Source: Planctomycetota bacterium (GTDB lineage Bacteria; Planctomycetota; SZUA-567). Taken from it: a stretch of 37,536 nucleotides of DNA. Location: assembly GCA_031289115.1 (NCBI GenBank), contig JAITQC010000171.1, forward strand, positions 1-37,536, written 5' to 3'. Position 1 is the stretch's first letter, and the number at the start of each line of letters is the position of its first letter. The translations under genes were made by a program, and so were the position numbers. Below, in pieces: positions 13,448 to 35,861 of this stretch. The notes under the pieces are model-generated. The model did not search any database, was not told the origin of the DNA, and worked only from the letters and a program-made list of their open reading frames with translations.

Positions 13448-13874
13448 ATGTCAAAAGAATTTACCGATTTCCTACCAAAATTTTCCGGTATTAGTGGAAT
13501 TCGTATCCTTGTCTAGGTTGTTGATGGCGTAATGACCGACTGGATAATAAGTTACATAGACACCGGCCAGGCGGTTAATTTTTTTGACGCCCACGCCGGT
13601 CTGGCCCTAAAATATTGGAAAAAGGCTGGTCACCCGAGCGATATCACTAGCGCTCGCGCCATTCCGGGGTTAGAACAGTGAGCGCGGGAGCTAGGAATTG
13701 ACCGCCTGCTCCTCCGGACCGCTGACAAACTCCCCCGCCGCCAGCGCCATGCTCCTGGAGGCTGGGGTGGCCTTCCTAGAGACATTGGTGACAGGTAACG
13801 CTATACCCGACCTACCCCTTCTACGCCGGGCCGGTCTTGGGGTGGCGGTGGCTAGCTCCGGCCTGGAGTCTTAG
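13448..13874 (+). pseudogene. kdsC: Decayed kdsC (3-deoxy-D-manno-octulosonate 8-phosphate phosphatase, HAD family)
   Basis: Frame 1 from ATG 13448: MSKEFTDFLPKFSGISGIRILV*VVDGVMTDWIISYIDTGQAVNFFDAHAGLALKYWKKAGHPSDITSARAIPGLEQ*ARELGIDRLLLRTADKLP; then the +1 frame: AASAMLLEAGVAFLETLVTGNAIPDLPLLRRAGLGVAVASSGLES*. Compare the KdsC pattern LDVDGVLTDG...RDGLGIKLL..AGI..AIITGR.S..VE.RARELGI...KDK...GDD.PDLP.....GL.VAVA. TAG at 13514-13516, TGA at 13679-13681, a frameshift near 13730-13745. Confidence 0.8.
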
Positions 13875-13973
13875 CCGTCGCCCATTGCGCCACCCGGAAA
13901 AGAGGCGGCCGGGGAGCGGTCAGGTGGCACCGCCTTCCCGTTTTTACCTTGCGCTAAAGATCCCGAGGATTAC

Positions 13974-16900
13974 ATGAAGCCCAGCCATCTCCTTTTGACC
14001 TTCCTACTCCTCTCCCCCATCCTGCTTTCCGGCGAGGAGACGACCGCCCAGCCCTACGAAAAGATCCGCTACCCCACTTTCGTGGACGGGCGCCTAAATA
14101 CCCTTCTGGAGGCAGACAAGGCCGAGGCCTTCGAGGTGGCCGAGGGTACCCCGCGGGTAAACCTGCAAAACGTGATCATAACCCTTTACGACCAATCCGC
14201 CGCCGCTCTGGCTGCCACTCCCCAAGGTTCACCCCTGCCGGTGAAGATGACTATCACCAGCGACCATGGCTACTTCACTCGCCGCCCTCCCGAACCCGGC
14301 GCTCCCATAGAGGAGATAGCCAACCTTGAGGGTAACGTGGTGCTCCGGCGTTACCGGACTGGCAACTCCCCGCCACCCATCACCAGCGTCAACCGCCGCC
14401 GCCGCCTCCCCCCGGAACTGGAAACCGAGGTGCATTGCCAGCACGCCCAGTGGAACAACACCCTGCGCAAGATGAACGGCGACGGCGAAGTGGAGTTTAT
14501 CCAGGAAGACAGCCGGATAATTGGCACTGGTTTCCTCTACCTCGCCGACGACGAAGTGATGATGGAAAGTACCGGCGCGTCCGGGAACAGCATCCGGGAA
14601 TGGGGGGGGATAATCTTTATCGAGCACAACGCCCGGATGGAGATTGAGCGGGAAAACCTCGGCGGCGCTGGCGCCTACGGAAGGACCGTGATCACCTGCA
14701 AGGACACGGCCAGTTACAAGTTGCGGGAGAGGGAGGTGCAGTTCGAGCGGGAAGTGAAAATCAACCGACCTGGCCTAATGATTGAGTCTGACATCCTCCA
14801 GGTCCTGCTCCGCCGCGAGGACGACCTTGAGACCAAGGACTCTACTGGCCCCGCTCCAATCCCTGGCATGGTGCGTTCCATCATCGCCACCATTGGCAAA
14901 CGCCCGGGGTCAGTGGTCATAACTGGCTTTGAACTTACCAACTCCGGGGAGGGAGCGGTACAGTACGTGGCCCGGGGCGGTCGGGCCGATTTCGACTACG
15001 ACGCCAACAGCATCAACCTAACCGACAGCCGCCTGGAACGGGTGCCGGAGGTGGAATTTGGTAACGATCGCATTTCTGACCGCAACCTCGACTTCACTTT
15101 CGCCTCCACTAGCGAGGATGAAAGTAGCGCCACCCCTCTGGAAGAGCTTAACGCCAGTGGCGGTCAGGGCATGGTCACTATGCGTCCTCGGCCGCGGACA
15201 GTGGGCGGAGCCGCCATCGTCACCGAGGTGTCTTACAAGGGGAGCATGCGCTACCTGCGTCCAGAAAGCATGATCCGTTTCCGCGACTCCATCTTCCTCC
15301 AGCATGGCGACCTGCGTATACGTTCGGAATTCCTGGACATACGCCTGCAGGACGGCCTGACCTCGGGTTCGGCCCAGGTGCGTAACATCACGGCTGAGAC
15401 TGATGTGGAAATCCGCACTGGCAACCGCGAGGCTCAGTCGCACCGGGCTGAATATGAGTTTGACTCCGCCACTGGCCTAGACACCCTCCGGCTTTTCGGC
15501 CTCCCTAGCCGCACCCCTCCCCACCCCTGGATCCGTGACGACGAGGGGAACCAAATCACCGCTCCCACCATTGTGATGCACCGCCTCCAGGGCGGTGGCA
15601 ATCAAAAAGACAAACACCTCCTTACCGCCGCCGATGGCACCATTGTTTGCGATTTCATCACCAGTCCTGACAACCTTTCCGACCGGGGCAAAGTGATTTC
15701 GGTGAAATGCGAACGGGCGATGGAATACAACGAAGCCAAGCGGATGGCCTGGTTTGAGGAACAAGTGATGGCCACCTCCGATGCTCCGGAGGACAATTAC
15801 GTCCTGACCAGCGACCGCCTGGAAATATACCTGGTTGAGAAACCCGATCCCAACGATCCTAGCCGAGTCAGCATCCGCCCCCGCCGCATTGACGCCAACG
15901 GCAACGCCAGGCTTATGCAGGACACCCGCGTCTGTGAGGCTAACCAGATCATCCGCGATTTTCCCAGCGAGCAGCTTAATGAGGGCGACATCTACCTGGA
16001 GGGGAGTCCCGCCCGTAACGGCCGCCCGCCAGAGATGGCGATATACCGCGAGCAGGACGGAGACAACCTGGGGTCAATGTTTACCGCCCCCCGGATCAAA
16101 GCGGCGGCTATCGGCAACCTGATCCAGGCCAACGGTCCGGGCGAACTATCCATTCCTGACGAAATACCCGGTTTCCGTTCGGAAATCGATTTCGAGGGAG
16201 CGGCCCGCTACGAGTCCTACCACGACGGTTTAGTAAGCGAGGCCAAGTTCCGTACCGGCGTGGTGCTGCGTCAACCCTCGAAAAATCTGGTAATGAATTC
16301 CGAGGAGCTAGACGCCCGCTTTCTCCAGAAAGACACTTCCGCCACCACCGCTGGCACGGTGACCATTCCCCTGGAGCGTATCGGTAACATTCGCCGGGCC
16401 GAGGCAAGGGTCGGAGTCAAAATCGAACACGGACTTCCCCGCCAGGGACGCCGCATCGCCACCGGTGACCGCGGGGTGGTAGAGTTTACCGAAAGCGGCA
16501 ACGTCATAACTCTGGCGGTAGACCGCCGTCTGGGCGAACGCCGCTGGGTCATGGCCCGCGACCATGACGGAATGACCCTGTGGGCCCCGGAAATCGAGGT
16601 CCGGCAGGAGCAGGGAGTGACCCGCGCCGCCGGGCCGGGCGAACTACGGGTCCCCGGGGACAGCTCCTCGGAGGGGATGAACCGCATTCCTACCCGCGTC
16701 GCTTACGGCGAAAAAGGAACGCTTATTTACAACGAACTGGCTCTTAACATCCGCGCCACCGACAATGTGCGCATCCTCCAGCCGTCCCCTAACGGACGCT
16801 GGGAGACCCCAAGCCTGGACGGGCGTTGCGACCGCCTGGAAATCATCCTACTTGAACCTCCCGAACCGGGCATGGGTGGTACAGGGGACGCCCTGTCGCG

Positions 16901-17252
16901 CGTGCTACGAATGGACGCGACTGGTTCAGTGCTACTACGAGTCTACGCCGACCCGGTAGCGGGTCTACCCGAGACTGACTGGATGAACCGGCCGGGCACC
17001 ACCTTTTTCACCCGTGGCGACCAGGCGGTTTACGACGTGCCGGAGGGACGCATAACCATGTCCGCCCTCACCGGCCGGCAACCCCAACTTCTGCTTAACG
17101 TGGTAGAGGACGGTTTGTCACCCCGCCGGCAGCGCATGCGGGCTGACCGTTTCGTCCTCAACACCAATTCCATTCCCCGTCGCTGGTATTTCGAGGGGCA
17201 GCTGGAAAGTTCCACCCTACGCCCTGGAGAACCCTTCGGATTTATTGATTAA
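13974..17252 (+). CDS. Large LptC/OstA (LptA)-like LPS-transport periplasmic protein
   Basis: Signal peptide MKPSHLLLTFLLLSPILLSGEE; N-terminal LptC-like region (MTITSDHGYFTRR...IANLEGNVVLRRYR...EVHCQHAQWNNTLRKMNGDGEVEFIQEDSRIIGTGFLYLADDEVM); then recurrent OstA-like units (ITCKDTASYKLREREVQFEREVKINRPGLMIESDILQVLLR; VKCERAMEYNEAKRMAWFEEQVMA...YVLTSDRLEIYL). Preceded by the kdsC relic, the classical kdsC-lptC-lptA order. Confidence 0.7.
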   Translation: MKPSHLLLTFLLLSPILLSGEETTAQPYEKIRYPTFVDGRLNTLLEADKAEAFEVAEGTPRVNLQNVIITLYDQSAAALAATPQGSPLPVKMTITSDHGYFTRRPPEPGAPIEEIANLEGNVVLRRYRTGNSPPPITSVNRRRRLPPELETEVHCQHAQWNNTLRKMNGDGEVEFIQEDSRIIGTGFLYLADDEVMMESTGASGNSIREWGGIIFIEHNARMEIERENLGGAGAYGRTVITCKDTASYKLREREVQFEREVKINRPGLMIESDILQVLLRREDDLETKDSTGPAPIPGMVRSIIATIGKRPGSVVITGFELTNSGEGAVQYVARGGRADFDYDANSINLTDSRLERVPEVEFGNDRISDRNLDFTFASTSEDESSATPLEELNASGGQGMVTMRPRPRTVGGAAIVTEVSYKGSMRYLRPESMIRFRDSIFLQHGDLRIRSEFLDIRLQDGLTSGSAQVRNITAETDVEIRTGNREAQSHRAEYEFDSATGLDTLRLFGLPSRTPPHPWIRDDEGNQITAPTIVMHRLQGGGNQKDKHLLTAADGTIVCDFITSPDNLSDRGKVISVKCERAMEYNEAKRMAWFEEQVMATSDAPEDNYVLTSDRLEIYLVEKPDPNDPSRVSIRPRRIDANGNARLMQDTRVCEANQIIRDFPSEQLNEGDIYLEGSPARNGRPPEMAIYREQDGDNLGSMFTAPRIKAAAIGNLIQANGPGELSIPDEIPGFRSEIDFEGAARYESYHDGLVSEAKFRTGVVLRQPSKNLVMNSEELDARFLQKDTSATTAGTVTIPLERIGNIRRAEARVGVKIEHGLPRQGRRIATGDRGVVEFTESGNVITLAVDRRLGERRWVMARDHDGMTLWAPEIEVRQEQGVTRAAGPGELRVPGDSSSEGMNRIPTRVAYGEKGTLIYNELALNIRATDNVRILQPSPNGRWETPSLDGRCDRLEIILLEPPEPGMGGTGDALSRVLRMDATGSVLLRVYADPVAGLPETDWMNRPGTTFFTRGDQAVYDVPEGRITMSALTGRQPQLLLNVVEDGLSPRRQRMRADRFVLNTNSIPRRWYFEGQLESSTLRPGEPFGFID

Positions 17253-17293: not shown

Positions 17294-18037
17294 ATGGAAA
17301 AAACGACGGCGGCGGAAGAGGCCATGCAGAAAGTCAAGGACGGCGACTACGAGGGGGCGGTTGCCACCCTTTTCGCCGCCTGGTCGGCCGACCGCGCCAA
17401 TCTGGACCTCGCCATCGCCTACGCTTGCCTCTTAACCAGCATCGACCGCGAGAACGAGGCGGAAGAACTGTTTTCCGCCCTGGCCGAGGAGTCCCCGGCC
17501 GACAGCCGGATATGGAACAACTGGGGTTTCCTCCTCCTGCAACGCGGGGATGTCATGGGAGCTATCCCTCGTCTGGAAAAAGCTCTGGAACTCTCCCCGT
17601 CCGACTTTGAGGCTCTGGTGAACCTGGGTATCGCCCTGGACCGTAACGGCCGGACCGCCGAAGCCATTCGTCTCTACCGCCAGGCGGTGACGGTGAACCC
17701 GGAGTCCTCGGTAGTCTACAACAACCTGGGCACCGCCCTCTGGCGTTCGGGAGAGGCGGAAGAGGCTCTGGCCGCTTTTCGTAACGCCATCCTTTACGAC
17801 CCCCGTGACGCCAGCGCCAACAACAATCTCGGCATTATCAAGCTTTCCCAAGGGCATTACCGCGAAGCGGCGGAGTTTTTCCGCCTTGCCCTGGAAATCG
17901 AACCCTCCGGCAATGCCGCCCGCCACAACCTCAAGGCAGCCGAAGCGGCACTGAAAGAAGATAGTAACCGCGACAAAACACTAAAACCCGATGTTGGGAG
18001 GAAGAAAAAATGCCCCGAGCCACCCACCCTCTTTTAA
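17294..18037 (+). CDS. Tetratricopeptide repeat protein
   Basis: AIPRLEKALELSPSDFEALVNLGIALDRNGRTAEAIRLYRQAVTVNPESSVVYNNLGTALWRSGEAEEALAAFRNAILYDPRDASANNNLGIIKLSQGHYREAAEFFRLALEIEPS: tandem TPRs. Confidence 0.9.
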   Translation: MEKTTAAEEAMQKVKDGDYEGAVATLFAAWSADRANLDLAIAYACLLTSIDRENEAEELFSALAEESPADSRIWNNWGFLLLQRGDVMGAIPRLEKALELSPSDFEALVNLGIALDRNGRTAEAIRLYRQAVTVNPESSVVYNNLGTALWRSGEAEEALAAFRNAILYDPRDASANNNLGIIKLSQGHYREAAEFFRLALEIEPSGNAARHNLKAAEAALKEDSNRDKTLKPDVGRKKKCPEPPTLF

Positions 18038-18987
18038 CCCTGCTTCTTCTTCTCGCCCTGGCCACGGGTAGCCAGGCCAGTGGCGCTGGCCTACTTTCCC
18101 GCTTCCGCGGCAACACCACCGCCTCCTCCGGCATGTTTCCCGATTCCGGGTCAGTCCCACAGCTCGAATTAACCGGCCGGATACTGACTTACCGCGGCAA
18201 CACTTTCACCGACACCTACGGCACCACCGCCAACATCTATCTGGTCTACGGCTTCACCGGCCTAAAATCCGCCACCTACAACTATGGCGGCCCTGACCGG
18301 CCACTGGTGATTGAGATAGCCGCCATGACCACTCCCGACGCCGCCGCCGGGATTTTCCACCACCACACGGTGAAGGTGCTGCAAAACCAGGCGGAAGATG
18401 TGGCGGTGGGTACGGAAGGAGCGCTAGACACCCCTCGGGGTGGCCGCACCCTGTATTTCTACAAAAGCAACCTTTTTGTGAAGATTATCTACAGCGGCAA
18501 GACCCCTATTCCCGACCTGCTGCCAGTGGCGCAGGCGGTGAACCAGCGGATAGGGGGAAGTGGCGGGCAAAAACCCCAGGGATTCAACTACATCGACATC
18601 CCAGGAGTTGACCTGAAGACCGTGTCAGTCACTCCCGGCAACTGTTTCCAGATCCAGGAACTGCCGCCAGCCGTGTGGGCAAGCGCCCCCGGCGGGGGTA
18701 GCACCGCCTCTGACCTCTTCATCATCACGCGGGGAAGCCGCCGCGAGGCGGCGCGAGTAGCCAGGGATTATTCCGCCTATGTAAGGCTGGTGGGACAGAA
18801 TTACGACGAGTACCGGGTGGGCAAGCAAACTTTTTGGCGGGGGGTAGACCCACAGCAGGGACGGGTGGTTTTCACCAGTTACCGCTCGGTGATGATTATC
18901 GCCGCCCGACCCGACGGCTTTGACAAGGGCGAGGAGTTGATAAAGGCGGTGATGCGTAAGATTGACGCGGTGGACGGGGTGAAATAA
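18010..18987 (+). CDS. Secreted DUF6599-like protein
   Basis: Signal peptide LLTLLLLLALATGSQASG; ILTYRGNTFTDTYGTTANIYLVYGFTGLKSATYNYGG...LVIEIAAMTTPDAAAGIFHHHTV resembles DUF6599. Overlaps the TPR gene end by 28 bp; GGAGG precedes the ATG. Confidence 0.65.
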   Translation: MPRATHPLLTLLLLLALATGSQASGAGLLSRFRGNTTASSGMFPDSGSVPQLELTGRILTYRGNTFTDTYGTTANIYLVYGFTGLKSATYNYGGPDRPLVIEIAAMTTPDAAAGIFHHHTVKVLQNQAEDVAVGTEGALDTPRGGRTLYFYKSNLFVKIIYSGKTPIPDLLPVAQAVNQRIGGSGGQKPQGFNYIDIPGVDLKTVSVTPGNCFQIQELPPAVWASAPGGGSTASDLFIITRGSRREAARVARDYSAYVRLVGQNYDEYRVGKQTFWRGVDPQQGRVVFTSYRSVMIIAARPDGFDKGEELIKAVMRKIDAVDGVK

Positions 18988-20041: not shown

Positions 20042-22288
20042 ATGGCGTCAAAAAAAGAACACCAGCGGAAATCCAAGGGGGCCCAAAAAGAAAAACCGCG
20101 AAACAAGCCCTCCCCGATACAACCGATATTTGAACCGGAAATTAATTCTCTTAGCATCGTGGAGCTTGCTTCCGCATCCTCCCCTACGGAGACGGAAGGC
20201 GAAGCGGCTTCCATTCCGGCGGAAAGTTCCACCCCGCCCGCTCCCCAGGCACCCGACGAAACTCCGGTGCCACCGGTGGAGGATTCCCCCGACCCAGCCG
20301 ACGACGCGGCGCCGGTTGACAACCCGACTTCCATTCCGGCGGAAGATTCCACCCCGCCCACTCCTCAGGCACCCGACGAAACTCCGGTGCCACCGGTGGA
20401 GGATTTCCCCGACCCAGCCGACGACGCGGCGCCGGATGACAACCCGCCTTCCATTCCAGCGGAAGATTCCACCCCGCCCGCTCCCCAGGCACCCGACGAA
20501 ACCCCGGTGACGCCGCTGGTGGCGACTGTCTCCGACCCAGCCGAACCGCCCTTCCACCCGGAGGAGACGGAAATACCCGCCTCCCCCTACCAGGAACCGC
20601 CACCCTCCCCAAAAAATCCCGACCCCAGTCCAGAAGGCGCGGGTGAACTGGAGCAGGCAACTTCCTATTGGGAAAAAACCGCCCCTTCCCGACCTGGGAA
20701 ACCGGAGTTGGCAATAACCCCGCCTCCCCCCCCCAGCGCCCCGGTGGAGTGCCAAGAGCCGGCGCCGACGGTTCAGGAAAATCAGGGTGAGTATGCCTTG
20801 CCAAAGGAGAAGCGGTTGTACATTGTGATGATCACCCCGGAAGTGGCGCCCTGCGCCAAAGTTGGGGGTTTGGGGGACGTAGTACAGGGTCTAGGCCGGG
20901 AACTGGAAAAACGCGGCCACAAAGTGGAAATCATCGCCCCCATGTACTCCTGCATGCGTTACGAAACCATAGAGGACCTTCACGAGGTATACGGGGAACT
21001 CTGGTGCCCTCACTACAACCAGTGGCGGTCGGAAAAAGTGTTCCAGGGACGGGTGGGTGGTGGTCTCACAGCCAACTTTATCACCGGTGGCGACTATACC
21101 CAGCGCCCCGCCATCTATGGCTACAACGACGATCTCCAGCGCTTCTCGTATTTCTGCCGCCAGGCCATGGAATTCATGTTCAAGACCAATCGCCGGCCTG
21201 ACATCATCCACTGCCACGACTGGACCACCGGCCTGGTGCCGGCCATCCTCTGGGACATCTACCAGCCGCTCGGCTGGAACAACTCCCGGGTCGTCTACAC
21301 CATCCACAACAACGAGTGCCAAGGTCTCTGCGGCTTCCCGGACAAGCTTCTTGGTCTAGTCGGCTTGAACCACGCCCAATGCCACCGCCCAGACCGCATG
21401 CAGGACGACAAGAACCGCAGCTGCATTAACCTGATGAAAGCGGGGATAATCTATTCCAACTTCACCACGACCGTTAGTCCCAGCTTCGCCAGTGAACTTA
21501 AAACCGTCGCCGGTGGACGCGGCCTAGAGCAAAGCATCAACAAAAACGCCGCCCGGATCGGCGGCATCCTCAACGGCATCGACTACGAAACCTGGAATCC
21601 CCAAACCGACAGCAAGCTGGCGGCCGTCTATTCACATGGCGAGAACTTCTTCGAGAAGTACAAAAACAAGACCGCTCTACGCGAATGGCTCTACCTCTGG
21701 GACGCCTGGAAGCCGATTGTATCGGTGGTCACCCGCCTCACCCACCAGAAGGGGATTGAGCTAATCAAGCGGGCCATCTATTCGACCCTGGAAGAAAAAT
21801 CCCAGTTTGTCCTTCTCGGCAGCGCCCCTGACCCCAAGATCAACAACGAGTTCATGCGCCTGCAGAACGAGTTCAAGGACAACCGCGATGTCAATCTCTA
21901 TATTGGCTACCACGAGGACCTCTCCCGCCTGATTTATGCCGGTAGCGACATTTTCCTCGTCCCCAGCCTGTTTGAACCCTGCGGCCTTACCCAGATGATC
22001 GCCCTGCGTTACGGCACCGTACCGGTGGTGCGGGAAACTGGCGGCCTGAAAGACACCGTTTTCGACCTTGACAATTCAGCCATGGGTCTGGGCGGGGCGA
22101 ACGGCTTCTCCTTCCGCGACCCCACCAACGCCAGCCTGGACTACGGCCTTAAACGGGCCATACGGCTCTGGTTTGACCAACCCGACATATTCAATCAACT
22201 AGCCCGTAACGGCATGCAATGCGACTACTCCTGGCGGCATCCGGCCGTCCATTATGAGAACATCTATAACTATATCCGGGCCGAGTGA
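20042..22288 (+). CDS. glgA: Glycogen/starch synthase (GT5) with a ~255-aa Pro/Glu/Asp-rich N-terminal extension
   Basis: Catalytic part begins RLYIVMITPEVAPCAKVGGLGDVVQGLGRELEKRGHKVEIIAPMY; DIIHCHDWTTGLVPAILW; TVSPSFASEL; GILNGIDYETWNPQTD; SDIFLVPSLFEPCGLTQMIALRYGTVPVVRETGGLKDTV. Confidence 0.92.
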   Translation: MASKKEHQRKSKGAQKEKPRNKPSPIQPIFEPEINSLSIVELASASSPTETEGEAASIPAESSTPPAPQAPDETPVPPVEDSPDPADDAAPVDNPTSIPAEDSTPPTPQAPDETPVPPVEDFPDPADDAAPDDNPPSIPAEDSTPPAPQAPDETPVTPLVATVSDPAEPPFHPEETEIPASPYQEPPPSPKNPDPSPEGAGELEQATSYWEKTAPSRPGKPELAITPPPPPSAPVECQEPAPTVQENQGEYALPKEKRLYIVMITPEVAPCAKVGGLGDVVQGLGRELEKRGHKVEIIAPMYSCMRYETIEDLHEVYGELWCPHYNQWRSEKVFQGRVGGGLTANFITGGDYTQRPAIYGYNDDLQRFSYFCRQAMEFMFKTNRRPDIIHCHDWTTGLVPAILWDIYQPLGWNNSRVVYTIHNNECQGLCGFPDKLLGLVGLNHAQCHRPDRMQDDKNRSCINLMKAGIIYSNFTTTVSPSFASELKTVAGGRGLEQSINKNAARIGGILNGIDYETWNPQTDSKLAAVYSHGENFFEKYKNKTALREWLYLWDAWKPIVSVVTRLTHQKGIELIKRAIYSTLEEKSQFVLLGSAPDPKINNEFMRLQNEFKDNRDVNLYIGYHEDLSRLIYAGSDIFLVPSLFEPCGLTQMIALRYGTVPVVRETGGLKDTVFDLDNSAMGLGGANGFSFRDPTNASLDYGLKRAIRLWFDQPDIFNQLARNGMQCDYSWRHPAVHYENIYNYIRAE
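20211..20512 (+). repeat. In-frame tandem repeat, 120-bp (40-aa) period, about 2.5 copies
   Basis: CCATTCCGGCGGAA... recurs at 20211, 20331 and 20451, exactly 120 bp apart; copies 1 and 2 differ at about 7 positions by eye. Encodes IPAE(S/D)STPP(A/T)PQAPDETPVPPVED(S/F)PDPADDAAP(V/D)DNP(T/P)S. Confidence 0.95.
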
Positions 22289-31054: not shown

Positions 31055-32302
31055 TTAACCCCGCCGGCGTTCCGCCTGTTTAACCCCGACCGCCAGGACC
31101 ATGATCAGCAATCCGTAAAAGGTGGTGGAGACATGCAGATAGAGGGGTTCGTTGGCGTAGCCAAAGATAATCCAGAGTAAAACCACCCCCAGCCCCGAAA
31201 GCGCTGGACAAACCACTTCCGGGTCAGGCGAGCGCCAGCGCCGGAGAAAAAAGACCAACGGCACGCCGTAAAGGAGAAGGATGGCTGACAACCCCAGGAT
31301 CCCCCGCATAGCCATAGCGTTCAGTAACTCATTGTGCAGGGTTCCGTAGGGATTGAGTTTGGCCTTGGTGAACCCTTCCTCCACGAGTTGTTGATGGAAA
31401 ATTTGCCGCTGCTTAAGGCCAAGTCCGAGGAGGGGTGACTCCTGGAAGTAGCGTAAAGCCAATTTCCACATGACCAATCTGGCTCCGATACTGGTGCTCA
31501 TAACGATTGTTTCGTCTTCCTGGTAGACGCTTATGTCACTCATCCCTTCCCGCAGCCGCGAATCCACTACCGACCGGAAATCACGGAGCAGAAAAATCGC
31601 CAAGCCAAGACCCAGGCATAGCCCCAGGGCAAGCAACAGGCGCTGGTAAAGCATTTTGTTATCCCGGCGAACCAGCATGGTGGCTAGGAGAGTCGCCGTC
31701 ACCAGAATCACCGCCAGCCAGTTGGCGCGTAGCCCAGTCAGAAACACCGCCAGTCCAGCGAGGGGAATCGCCAGGACACTAAGTAATAGCCATTTCCCGC
31801 GGTCAGCGAAAAAGAGGAAAGTAATGGCGACCAGGAACAGCGCCCCTGTCAGGTTGCCGAAGGAGTTGACATTCACCCCCCCCGACACCCGCCGGATGTC
31901 CTGGAGGTAAAATTGGACCAAGGCGTAAACTCCGGATCCAATACCTGCGAGAAGCAGGGAAAGGCGTAACCAGACCCCCCGCAATTCCACCCTCCCCAAT
32001 ATGACCCCGGTAAAAATCAGCCCGACCAGGAGGAAGCGGGAACTGTGGTCCAGAGCGCGCCCGGTAAAACCCAGATCCATAATCACCTGGGGAATGGCTG
32101 ACAGGAAGGCCCAGAAAAAAATCCCCAGCAGGCATTTCTCCTCCCCATCGGGTCGCTGGCGCGGCGGGTAAAAAAGGCGGATCGCCAGTAAAATTAGCGC
32201 TCCCAGGGAAAAGACGTAGATGCCGTGGTGAACCAGGCTGGCGGTGAAAAGGGCGAGGGCGAGGAAGAGGGTTACCGCGGCGGGAAACAGGGCGGGGGTC
32301 AT
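31055..32302 (-). CDS. O-antigen ligase/polymerase family membrane protein (WaaL-like)
   Basis: 415-aa polytopic protein; RVSGGVNVNSFGNLTGALFLVAITF; TGLRANWLAVILVTATLLA; GLGLKQRQIFHQQLVEEGFTKAKLNPYGTLHNELLNAMAMRGILGLSAILLLYG: Wzy_C-type loop with a conserved His. Confidence 0.8.
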   Translation of the reverse strand: MTPALFPAAVTLFLALALFTASLVHHGIYVFSLGALILLAIRLFYPPRQRPDGEEKCLLGIFFWAFLSAIPQVIMDLGFTGRALDHSSRFLLVGLIFTGVILGRVELRGVWLRLSLLLAGIGSGVYALVQFYLQDIRRVSGGVNVNSFGNLTGALFLVAITFLFFADRGKWLLLSVLAIPLAGLAVFLTGLRANWLAVILVTATLLATMLVRRDNKMLYQRLLLALGLCLGLGLAIFLLRDFRSVVDSRLREGMSDISVYQEDETIVMSTSIGARLVMWKLALRYFQESPLLGLGLKQRQIFHQQLVEEGFTKAKLNPYGTLHNELLNAMAMRGILGLSAILLLYGVPLVFFLRRWRSPDPEVVCPALSGLGVVLLWIIFGYANEPLYLHVSTTFYGLLIMVLAVGVKQAERRRG

Positions 32303-32415
32303 GCTACTCCTTTGCTTTCGCTGTCAGCCCAAAAATGCGGGAAGGTACCGCGATTTACCAAGTCCCACTGGCGAAACCGGCGGGGCAGGACAGGGTAAGT
32401 TTTTTCGGGGACAAA

Positions 32416-33366
32416 CTAGCCAGCGGGTGCCTTTCCGCCTCGCTCCCGCCAGGCGGAAGCCATTTCCTGGAAAGCCGCCTCGGCGGAAAACACCGGCTTC
32501 CAGGCCAGTTCGTCCCACAGGGGTTTGCTATCGACATAACTGTCGCCCAGTAACTTCTCCGCCCGGCTGGTTTGTCCCAGCAGTTTAGCCAAGCCCCTGA
32601 TATAGCTGGCGGGAATGGGGAGTAAACGAACCTTTCTCCCCAGGGCGGCGGCTATCCGCCGCAGTAGTTCCGGGGTGGAGTAGACCGCCCCGTCGCTCGC
32701 CGCATAAACCCCGTCCAGGGGTTCGGGGCGGCGTAGACAAGCGAGTATCAGGTCAGCGAAATTACGCACATTCATGATGCTACGGCGGTTCTCTACCCCT
32801 CCCAGAGGGAAGGGAACGCCAAGGTCGATCCAGCGCATCAGGGAGGCCAGGTTTCCCCGCACCCCTTTACCCAGCATTAGGCAAGGACGTAGTATTGCCA
32901 GGCTAGTCAAGCTTCCCGCCGTCCGTTTCCGGATCGCCTCCTCGGCGTCCTTCTTGGCTTCGCCATAAAAACCCACCCCCTGGTCACCCGACTCCCAAGA
33001 ACCAGCGTGCTGGGAACTGACAAAAACAAAGCGGGGAATTTTACCCGCCACCGCCTGCTCGGCCAAGTCCGCCGCCGCCTGGACATTTATCCGGCGCATC
33101 CGCTCCCTGGCTTCCCCCTGCCCAATGTTGGTGTGGGCCACCCCGGCCAGATGCACCACCGCGCCAACTCCTTTCAGATGGGGCGTCCAGTCGAAATCCT
33201 CTGCCAGGTTAGCCATGATGAAAGGTGGGGCGGCAGCCGGAGAGCGGGGCGTCAAACCGCTGGCTTGACCTAGCCAGGCAATGCCAGCGGCCTGGCAGGC
33301 GTCCACCAGGGCTTGCCCGACAAAACCGCTGGCGCCAGTGATAAGCAAGCGTCCTTCCATTTCCAA
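32416..33366 (-). CDS. NAD-dependent epimerase/dehydratase (extended SDR)
   Basis: MEGRLLITGASGFVGQALVDACQAAG; VVHLAGVAHTN; FVFVSSQHAGS; GEAKKDAEEAIR; RRSIMNVRNFADLILACL. Confidence 0.88.
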   Translation of the reverse strand: MEMEGRLLITGASGFVGQALVDACQAAGIAWLGQASGLTPRSPAAAPPFIMANLAEDFDWTPHLKGVGAVVHLAGVAHTNIGQGEARERMRRINVQAAADLAEQAVAGKIPRFVFVSSQHAGSWESGDQGVGFYGEAKKDAEEAIRKRTAGSLTSLAILRPCLMLGKGVRGNLASLMRWIDLGVPFPLGGVENRRSIMNVRNFADLILACLRRPEPLDGVYAASDGAVYSTPELLRRIAAALGRKVRLLPIPASYIRGLAKLLGQTSRAEKLLGDSYVDSKPLWDELAWKPVFSAEAAFQEMASAWRERGGKAPAG

Positions 33367-33648
33367 CCCCCGGTGTATATCACTTGTCTCTACCCTGTCC
33401 CGGCGGGACCAGAGGAAACACCAGTATGGCCGCCAGGCTGAAAACAGTCAAGCCGCCAGGCGCCTAGCGCCGGGTCCTCTCCCCCCCAGTAAACTTCCCG
33501 GCCCGGCCGGGAAGCCAGGCGGGGGTGGGCGGTTTTAATTTTGACCTAGCCGCTTTCCGGCATTAGCATTGGCGTAAGTCATTTATTTCACCCACCGAAC
33601 GGGTTTTCCGCCTTTTTCACCCGCCCGGGACAACCAAGGAGAAGAACC

Positions 33649-34725
33649 ATGCCGGAGTCAGACGACCTCGCAGTCATTACCGAGCTATCCCACGAGTTCG
33701 GTGTCCCAACCTATGTCAGGGGTGGCGGTGGAAACACCTCCGTCAAGGATGCCTCCACCCTGTGGATCAAGCCAAGCGGCACTTCCCTTGGTGAAATGAC
33801 CCGGGAGAGTTTCATCCCGATGTCCCGGGAAAAACTCGCCGGCCTCTACCAGACCACCTTCCCGACCGAGGACAAGGCCCGCGAAAGCGCTGTGAAGGAC
33901 TTTATCGCCACCACCCTCCTCCCCGGCGCCACCGGGCGGCCTTCGGTGGAGGCGCCTCTCCACAATTCCTTCCCCCAGCGTTTTGTCGTCCACACCCATC
34001 CTTCCCTGGTAAACGGCATGACCTGCGGCAAGAACGGACGCACCTTCGCCGCCACCGCCTTTCCCCAGGCGCTCTGGGTTGACTTTATCGAGCCGGGTTA
34101 CACCCTAAGCCAAGCGATACGCAAAGAGATGCTGGCCTATGCCGAGCGCACCGGTTCGCCTCCGGAAATACTTTTCCTCGGTAACCACGGCGTCTTTATC
34201 GCCCACGATACCGCCGCCGGAATACGTTCCCTCTACCAGGAGGTGATGACAAAAATCTCCGCCCGGGTAAGCGGAGCCGGTTTCGCTGGTGACCCGGAAA
34301 AGGGGCCCGAACCTAGCCCGGCGGCCCAAGAGGCGGCGAAGCGGGTCCTCGCCAGTGTCCTCGGGGCCGACGCCAGTGAAATAGTGGCTGCTGGCCATTT
34401 CAGCCTTCCCACCGGAGCCATAAGTCCGGACCACATCGTCTACTGCAAGTCTTACATGTACCGGGGAGAAATCAGCGCCGCTGGCCTAACCGCTTACCAG
34501 GCCCGTTATGGTGTCTGGCCCCGGGTAGCCGAGGCGTCAGACGCCGTCTATGGGTTTGGCAGCAGCCGCAAGGTGGCCGACCTCGCCTTGGAAATGGCCT
34601 GGGACGCCGCTTTGATCGTCCGTTACGCCCAGGCCTTCGGCGGCATCCAATACCTTAGCGAGCGTTTCGTCAAGTTTATCGAGGGCTGGGAAGTGGAAAG
34701 CTATCGCCAGAGGTTGACCCAATGA
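33649..34725 (+). CDS. Class II aldolase/adducin family protein
   Basis: RGGGGNTSVKDASTLWIKPSGTSLGEM; SVEAPLHNSFPQRFVVHTHPSLVNGMTCG; EILFLGNHGVFIAHD. AAGGAG upstream of the ATG. Confidence 0.88.
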   Translation: MPESDDLAVITELSHEFGVPTYVRGGGGNTSVKDASTLWIKPSGTSLGEMTRESFIPMSREKLAGLYQTTFPTEDKARESAVKDFIATTLLPGATGRPSVEAPLHNSFPQRFVVHTHPSLVNGMTCGKNGRTFAATAFPQALWVDFIEPGYTLSQAIRKEMLAYAERTGSPPEILFLGNHGVFIAHDTAAGIRSLYQEVMTKISARVSGAGFAGDPEKGPEPSPAAQEAAKRVLASVLGADASEIVAAGHFSLPTGAISPDHIVYCKSYMYRGEISAAGLTAYQARYGVWPRVAEASDAVYGFGSSRKVADLALEMAWDAALIVRYAQAFGGIQYLSERFVKFIEGWEVESYRQRLTQ

Positions 34726-35861
34726 CCGACCCTCGGCCAACTCCCCTCGCTCCCGCTGGCCGCGGCCCGGCCACCCCCCTCCCCCGGCGTATGCTGGTGA
34801 CCGGTGGCTCGGGGTTTATCGGGGTTAACTTTATCCGCCTGGTCCTTGCCAGCGAACCCGAAGTCAAGGTGCTTAACTTTGACGCCCTGACTTACGCCGG
34901 CAACCCCCACGCCTTTGCCGACCTCCCGGCGGAGGAACAATCCCGCTACCAGTTTGTCCGGGGCGACATCCGAGAGCGCCCGGACGTCCTAGCGGCTTTC
35001 ACCTCCTTCCAGCCGGAGGCGGTGGTAAATTTCGCCGCCGAAAGCCATGTCGACCGCTCTATCGACAACCCCCTGGCTTTCGTGGAGACTAACGTACTGG
35101 GGACTGCCAATCTGCTCCATCTCGCCCGGGAGTTTTCCCAGAAAGGCAGTCCCGTCCATTTCCACCATGTCTCCACCGATGAGGTTTACGGTTCCCTGGG
35201 CGACAGCGGTAGTTTTCGGGAGGACTCGCTTTACGACCCCTCCTCCCCTTACGCCGCCAGCAAAGCCGCCTCCGACCACCTGGTGCAGGCCTGGCACCGT
35301 ACCTACGGTCTACGGACAACCCTTAGCAACTGTTCCAACAACTACGGTCCCTGGCAGTTTCCGGAAAAATTGATCCCCCTGGTCCTGGGTAACGCCATCG
35401 CCGGGAAGCCAATTCCAGTCTATGGCGACGGCGGGAATATCCGTGACTGGCTCCATGTCGAGGACCACGCCCGGGCCATCCTGACAATTCTCCGGCTTGG
35501 ACGCCCCGGCGCCTGCTACAATGTCGGGGGTCGGGGGGAACTCAGTAACCTCAACCTGGTCCAGCGCCTCTGCGACATCCTGCAGGAACTTTCACCCCTC
35601 CCGGACCGGCACTACCGCGACCTCATAACCTTTGTCCCCGACCGCCCCGGCCACGATCGCCGCTACGCCATTGACCCAGGACGAATTGAAACCGAGCTTG
35701 GCTGGAAGGCGGGACACAGCCTGGATAGCGGGCTCCGGGACACGGTTCTTTGGTATCTGTCCCACCAGGATTGGTTACGGACAATCCAACAGGAGGTTTA
35801 CGACGGCCGCCGCCTGGGGGGAGGGTCAGCCACCCCACCGCGGTCCCCGGCGGCTGGATGA
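34722..35861 (+). CDS. rfbB: dTDP-glucose 4,6-dehydratase
   Basis: RRMLVTGGSGFIGVNFIRLVL; LNFDALTYAGN; VNFAAESHVDRSIDNPLAFVETNVLGTANLL; HVSTDEVYGSLGD; YAASKAASDHLVQAWHRTYGLRTTLSNCSNNYGPWQFPEKLIPL. 4-bp ATGA overlap with the aldolase gene. Confidence 0.95.
   Translation: MTDPRPTPLAPAGRGPATPLPRRMLVTGGSGFIGVNFIRLVLASEPEVKVLNFDALTYAGNPHAFADLPAEEQSRYQFVRGDIRERPDVLAAFTSFQPEAVVNFAAESHVDRSIDNPLAFVETNVLGTANLLHLAREFSQKGSPVHFHHVSTDEVYGSLGDSGSFREDSLYDPSSPYAASKAASDHLVQAWHRTYGLRTTLSNCSNNYGPWQFPEKLIPLVLGNAIAGKPIPVYGDGGNIRDWLHVEDHARAILTILRLGRPGACYNVGGRGELSNLNLVQRLCDILQELSPLPDRHYRDLITFVPDRPGHDRRYAIDPGRIETELGWKAGHSLDSGLRDTVLWYLSHQDWLRTIQQEVYDGRRLGGGSATPPRSPAAG

Follow-up and report, generated by a model that had tools for sequence, protein, structure and literature searches.

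In E. coli the periplasmic bridge for LPS is made of separate small proteins, LptC and stacked LptA, joined by non-covalent contacts, and the genes lie in the order kdsC-lptC-lptA-lptB. The jellyrolls of these proteins stack C-terminus to N-terminus (PMC7237710). In modelling, one LptA spans about 40 A, and LptC-LptA-LptD built with a single LptA comes to about 15 nm (PMC10863985); the number of LptA units in the bridge is stated to be unknown (PMC7237710, PMC10094684, PMC10863985). Lpt is said to differ from single-polypeptide systems in that it bridges with small proteins, and LetAB is a single-polypeptide tunnel for phospholipid trafficking (both PMC8727689). For Methylacidiphilum (Verrucomicrobiota), distinct genes for LptA and LptC are listed next to each other (PMC10542722), and a survey finds Lpt systems graded down to a "largely reduced" form, Planctomycetes being one example (PMC8871954). 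One study uses LptD as a marker and does not mention LptA, LptB or LptC (PMC3422733), and Lpt goes unmentioned in one on the genes essential to a planctomycete (PMC10632474). The literature searched, with subscription papers mostly outside it, contained no description of an LptC-LptA fusion or of a one-chain Lpt bridge. This is weak evidence that the one-chain LptC-LptA(5) considered here, a variant of the known Lpt system, is apparently undescribed.

The window, by which is meant the whole stretch of 37,536 nucleotides that was analysed, comes from a Planctomycetota bacterium whose near relatives are represented by MAGs that bear isolate names (Nc350 and Ct408, for instance) and are suspected to come from termite-gut samples. 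On its forward strand lies a gene (13974-17252, ATG start, no internal stops) for a protein of 1092 aa. The preliminary description had read this protein as LptC-like at its start and OstA-like, recurrently, thereafter. All of the sequence stretches it quoted are found in the protein, and the reading is borne out by Pfam matches and by in-register repeats that go beyond shuffled and reversed controls. The protein is one LptC-like domain followed by five homologous OstA/LptA units, in keeping with the five or six jellyrolls estimated from its length. Residues 1-26 (13974-14051, forward strand) form an export signal, as judged from sequence and hydropathy, with a hydrophobic core at residues 6-20. 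This stretch is short and is followed by a possible cleavage site, so that it is ambiguous as a membrane anchor. Orthologues carry small-residue, cleavage-like sites (VSA-GE, VPA-GE), and the signal is therefore probably cleavable.

Both domain names turn up in a domain scan, one above its Pfam cut-off and the other sub-threshold in this protein but significant in relatives. The LptC-like jellyroll, placed at residues 30-200 (14061-14573, forward strand) by Pfam and an LptC profile, with LptC structures also among the Foldseek matches to the model as a whole, is the weaker: Pfam LptC (PF06835) reaches 16.6 bits at residues 38-195, against a cut-off of 21. In an alignment of 14 members (A1, the protein and 13 relatives) it matches nine at E<=0.1, the best, a relative, at 3.1e-9, and in fused homologues from other families it is well above the cut-off. 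Pfam LptD_N/OstA (PF03968, the LptA family) exceeds its cut-off of 20.4 with 22.9 bits at residues 429-534 and matches all 14 aligned members (best 7.8e-25), with OstA_2 also among the family's matches. NCBIfam finds the same two families in the protein, LptC and LptD_N/OstA, below cut-off.

The five OstA/LptA jellyroll units, all on the forward strand and delimited by self-comparison and unit profiles, lie at residues 231-376 (14664-15101), 412-541 (15207-15596, the unit containing the Pfam LptD_N match), 570-712 (15681-16109), 731-880 (16164-16613) and 904-1040 (16683-17093). They are visible to profiles only: BLAST self-comparison of the single sequence finds no repeats, and PDB searches with the single sequence give no match. 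When sub-profiles of A1 were compared with the whole A1 profile, five in-register copies emerged, the best pairs scoring 120-128 at a probability of 98.7-98.8%, as against maxima of 25.6 (2.4%) for column-shuffled and 27.7 (3.8%) for reversed controls. Residues 30-200 have no significant alignment with the OstA units in this comparison.

An AlphaFold2 model built on A1 is almost entirely beta, with a mean pLDDT of 80.3. At a pTM of 0.53, how the units lie relative to one another is uncertain and the geometry from unit to unit insecure. Against the PDB, Foldseek returns LptD as the top match, followed by LptC (4b54, TMt 0.75; 6mit_C, TMt 0.61), LptH (TMt 0.72) and LptA (2r1a_H, TMt 0.71, rmsd 2.8), and also one eukaryotic bridge-like match, LPD-3. 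What is predicted is thus a confident all-beta model matching Lpt proteins and not disordered segments or unrelated folds. The predicted model of a 655-aa relative shows a membrane helix at its N terminus and matches LptA at up to TMt 0.80.

The gene occupies the place that lptC-lptA has after kdsC in E. coli, except that the kdsC upstream of it is a pseudogene. The pseudogene (13449-13924, forward strand) has in-frame stops and frame changes and stands where relatives have intact kdsC; a TIGR01670 match at 13499-13732 has a TGA and a TAG inside, and the remnant matches the kdsC of a relative by tblastn at 3.5e-18. Four relatives (G002, G005, G006 and G016) have the fusion gene directly or closely 3' of an intact kdsC. 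An intact KdsC is encoded on another contig (G000:C118:3095-3538), and since it is only 36-42% identical to KdsC of relatives, replacement of the kdsC of this locus by another copy is possible. On the other side, domain and neighbourhood searches make the next gene (17294-18037, forward strand) that of a TPR-repeat protein, and in G005 a TPR-like-looking gene likewise lies 3' of the fusion.

Elsewhere in the window, a DUF6599 protein is encoded two genes 3' of the fusion (18010-18987), and a GlgA-type glycogen synthase at 20042-22288 has about 258 extra N-terminal residues without a Pfam match. O-antigen ligase-like (Wzy_C), epimerase and GDP-mannose dehydratase-like genes at 31055-35861 make up a surface polysaccharide region. 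A scan for defence families gave no match.

Partners with which such a protein would work are present elsewhere in the genome: LptB (contig C106), two LptF/LptG-type permeases (C61 and C77) and LptD (C219). A normal, separate pair of lptC and lptA, which would have told against a fusion, was not detected in the genome, 83% complete in 221 contigs, by profiles for the OstA unit (A3) and the LptC domain (A4). The first finds five matches, all within the 1092-aa protein; the second finds one, at 1.4e-49, in the same protein, whose domain was included in building A4. Whole-genome Pfam searches for LptC and LptD_N lack the sensitivity needed, missing even the 1092-aa protein, and their silence about the rest of the genome is accordingly not counted as evidence. 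Given the state of the assembly, the missing sequence could contain a separate LptA, though nearly complete relatives make this less likely. Five genomes of one family (f47), 99-100% complete and assembled in one to three contigs, give three OstA units and a single LptC domain, all in one protein of about 660 aa, and the sole exception is a weak OstA match in a 928-aa frame of G270, perhaps LptD to judge by its length. With the partners present, no separate LptC or LptA detected here, and essentially none in nearly complete relatives, the 1092-aa protein most likely stands in for LptC as well as for the LptA oligomer. A 392-aa protein with a membrane helix, encoded 3' of one LptF/G gene, was considered as LptC and rejected, being a LysM protein. 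Overlapping the end of one LptF/G gene (L109:6053-6877) is a frame with RIO1, APH and Kdo/WaaP-type kinase matches just above or below their cut-offs.

Then there is the evidence from the rest of the phylum. The gene is open and nearly full-length in seven further genomes of the family, where identity is about 60%, more remote versions are 24-31% identical, and in many Planctomycetota families one long protein is encoded 3' of kdsC, with lengths of 359, 559, 575, 635-655, 793, 834 and about 900-1220 aa. An HMM of the OstA unit, made from this protein's family and its sister family alone, detects units in most of these long proteins, at full-sequence E values of 1e-51 to 1e-4, reversed sequences reaching 0.05 at best. 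The countable units rise with length: one in 359 aa, three in 635-655, four in 793 and 834, and five in the 1092-aa protein. In some families the long proteins are more diverged and the HMM recognises few units or none, so their numbers are not countable. Pfam bears out the fusion independently, with LptC (7e-17) and three LptD_N (1.3e-23) in the 655-aa relative, and LptC (7.4e-11) and four LptD_N (6.5e-24) in the 793-aa one. By these sequence comparisons, LptC-OstA(n) fusions with about one to five recognisable units occur across many Planctomycetota families. An LptC profile matches in 88 of 392 genomes, in frames of at least 303 aa (the 303-aa one near a contig end); as the profile derives from fused forms, this census is biased towards them. 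Unfused forms were met with too: a 174-aa protein 3' of kdsC in G056, and in G063 a 226-aa frame followed by a 168-aa OstA-like protein. Unrelated-looking genes lie beside kdsC in G054, G078 and G097, and many of the regions surveyed yielded no kdsC frame.

Gene order in this wider set offers some observations of its own. At L139, L141-L145 and L154 (f47 and f78) the gene after the fusion looks, from its motifs, like a glycerophosphodiester phosphodiesterase, and the order is conserved. In some families, at L195 (G044), L178 (G053) and L179 (G047), kdsC and LptD-family matches share a contig and are about 5 kb apart, which suggests kdsC-lptCA-lptD clusters. At L117 (G046) a 301-aa LptA-like protein is followed by what appears by eye to be an RpoN-like gene, an order resembling the proteobacterial one, on what could be a contaminant contig.

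I propose that the 1092-aa protein is very probably the periplasmic part of an LPS export machine made as one chain. One could instead suppose that it is only an oversized LptA, a string of OstA units, and that a separate LptC too divergent to be seen lies elsewhere, the LptC-LptA contact being needed as before. The sub-threshold Pfam score and the failure of the LptC part to align with the OstA units lean that way. It is unlikely nonetheless, for the LptC profile matches once per genome, always in the fused protein; in relatives from several families the N terminus of that one chain matches Pfam LptC at 1e-16 to 1e-17; and most fused forms of other families begin, as LptC does, with a membrane helix that looks uncleaved.

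Harder still to credit is a bridge for some other lipid, in which case the protein would be a phospholipid conduit resembling TamB/AsmA or LetB and would share only the jellyroll look. Long single-chain lipid conduits do exist, and LPD-3 is among the Foldseek matches, but Pfam and NCBIfam find no TamB, AsmA or MCE match. The matches of the family are LptD_N, LptC and OstA_2, its neighbourhood is that of kdsC, and the genome's LptB, LptF/G and LptD would otherwise be without LptC or LptA. Least credible of all is that the fusion is an assembly artefact or a gene in decay. The adjoining pseudogene does indicate that the locus has been eroding, but independent assemblies refute this account, with the gene open and nearly full-length in seven other members of the family and with long versions of their own in many Planctomycetota families. 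The fusion reading of the preliminary description, a single-polypeptide LptC-LptA bridge, is thus largely upheld by domains, repeats, fold, neighbourhood and the failure to detect LptC or LptA as separate proteins.

Such a one-chain bridge might work as follows. The N-terminal LptC-like jellyroll would sit on the LptB2FG transporter, at the LptF jellyroll, and the five OstA jellyrolls, stacking C-terminus to N-terminus, would build a single, presumably continuous hydrophobic groove, with the last unit docking on LptD at its N-terminal jellyroll. LPS that LptB2FG takes out of the inner membrane would slide along this groove to LptD. Since the LptC-LptA and LptA-LptA contacts would lie within one chain, LptA oligomerisation would be unneeded and the number of units would be set by the gene, at five after LptC. 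Six linked units at 40 A per LptA (PMC10863985) would give a bridge of about 6 x 4 nm, or about 24 nm. A more tentative idea, which may well prove wrong, is that the gene-encoded number (about one to five or more after LptC, depending on the family) is a ruler matched to the width of the periplasm, and that a covalent chain replaced the dynamic LptC-LptA(n) oligomer in Planctomycetota. A natural bridge with its unit number fixed genetically would bear on the open question of how many jellyrolls are used, its length could be tested against periplasm width, and it would offer a stable target for a whole-bridge structure. Fused and diverged LptC and LptA are also easily missed, which may help explain the "largely reduced" system of Planctomycetes (PMC8871954).

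How, then, does the protein compare with what is known? LetB/MCE tunnels, TamB and AsmA-like bridges are also single-chain, periplasm-spanning movers of lipid, but they belong to unrelated families. The N-terminal jellyroll of LptD is of the same family, but the 1092-aa protein has no beta-barrel and the genome has an LptD of its own. The multi-unit OstA proteins of other Planctomycetota (655, 793 and about 1000 aa) share the LptC-like plus OstA architecture beside kdsC and differ in length, in unit number and, mostly, in keeping an N-terminal membrane helix that looks uncleaved. With LptC and LptA of E. coli (PF06835, PF03968) the protein shares the OstA/LptA jellyroll family and apparently the LptC one, the order of LptC and then LptA, the place after kdsC and the partner genes LptB, LptF/G and LptD. 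The protein departs from LptC in that its family probably has a cleaved signal in place of the membrane helix, and from LptA in that its OstA units are not a stand-alone small soluble protein but five in one chain of 1092 aa. Where E. coli uses small proteins in a copy number that is unknown, here there is one gene, one chain and a fixed five LptA units.
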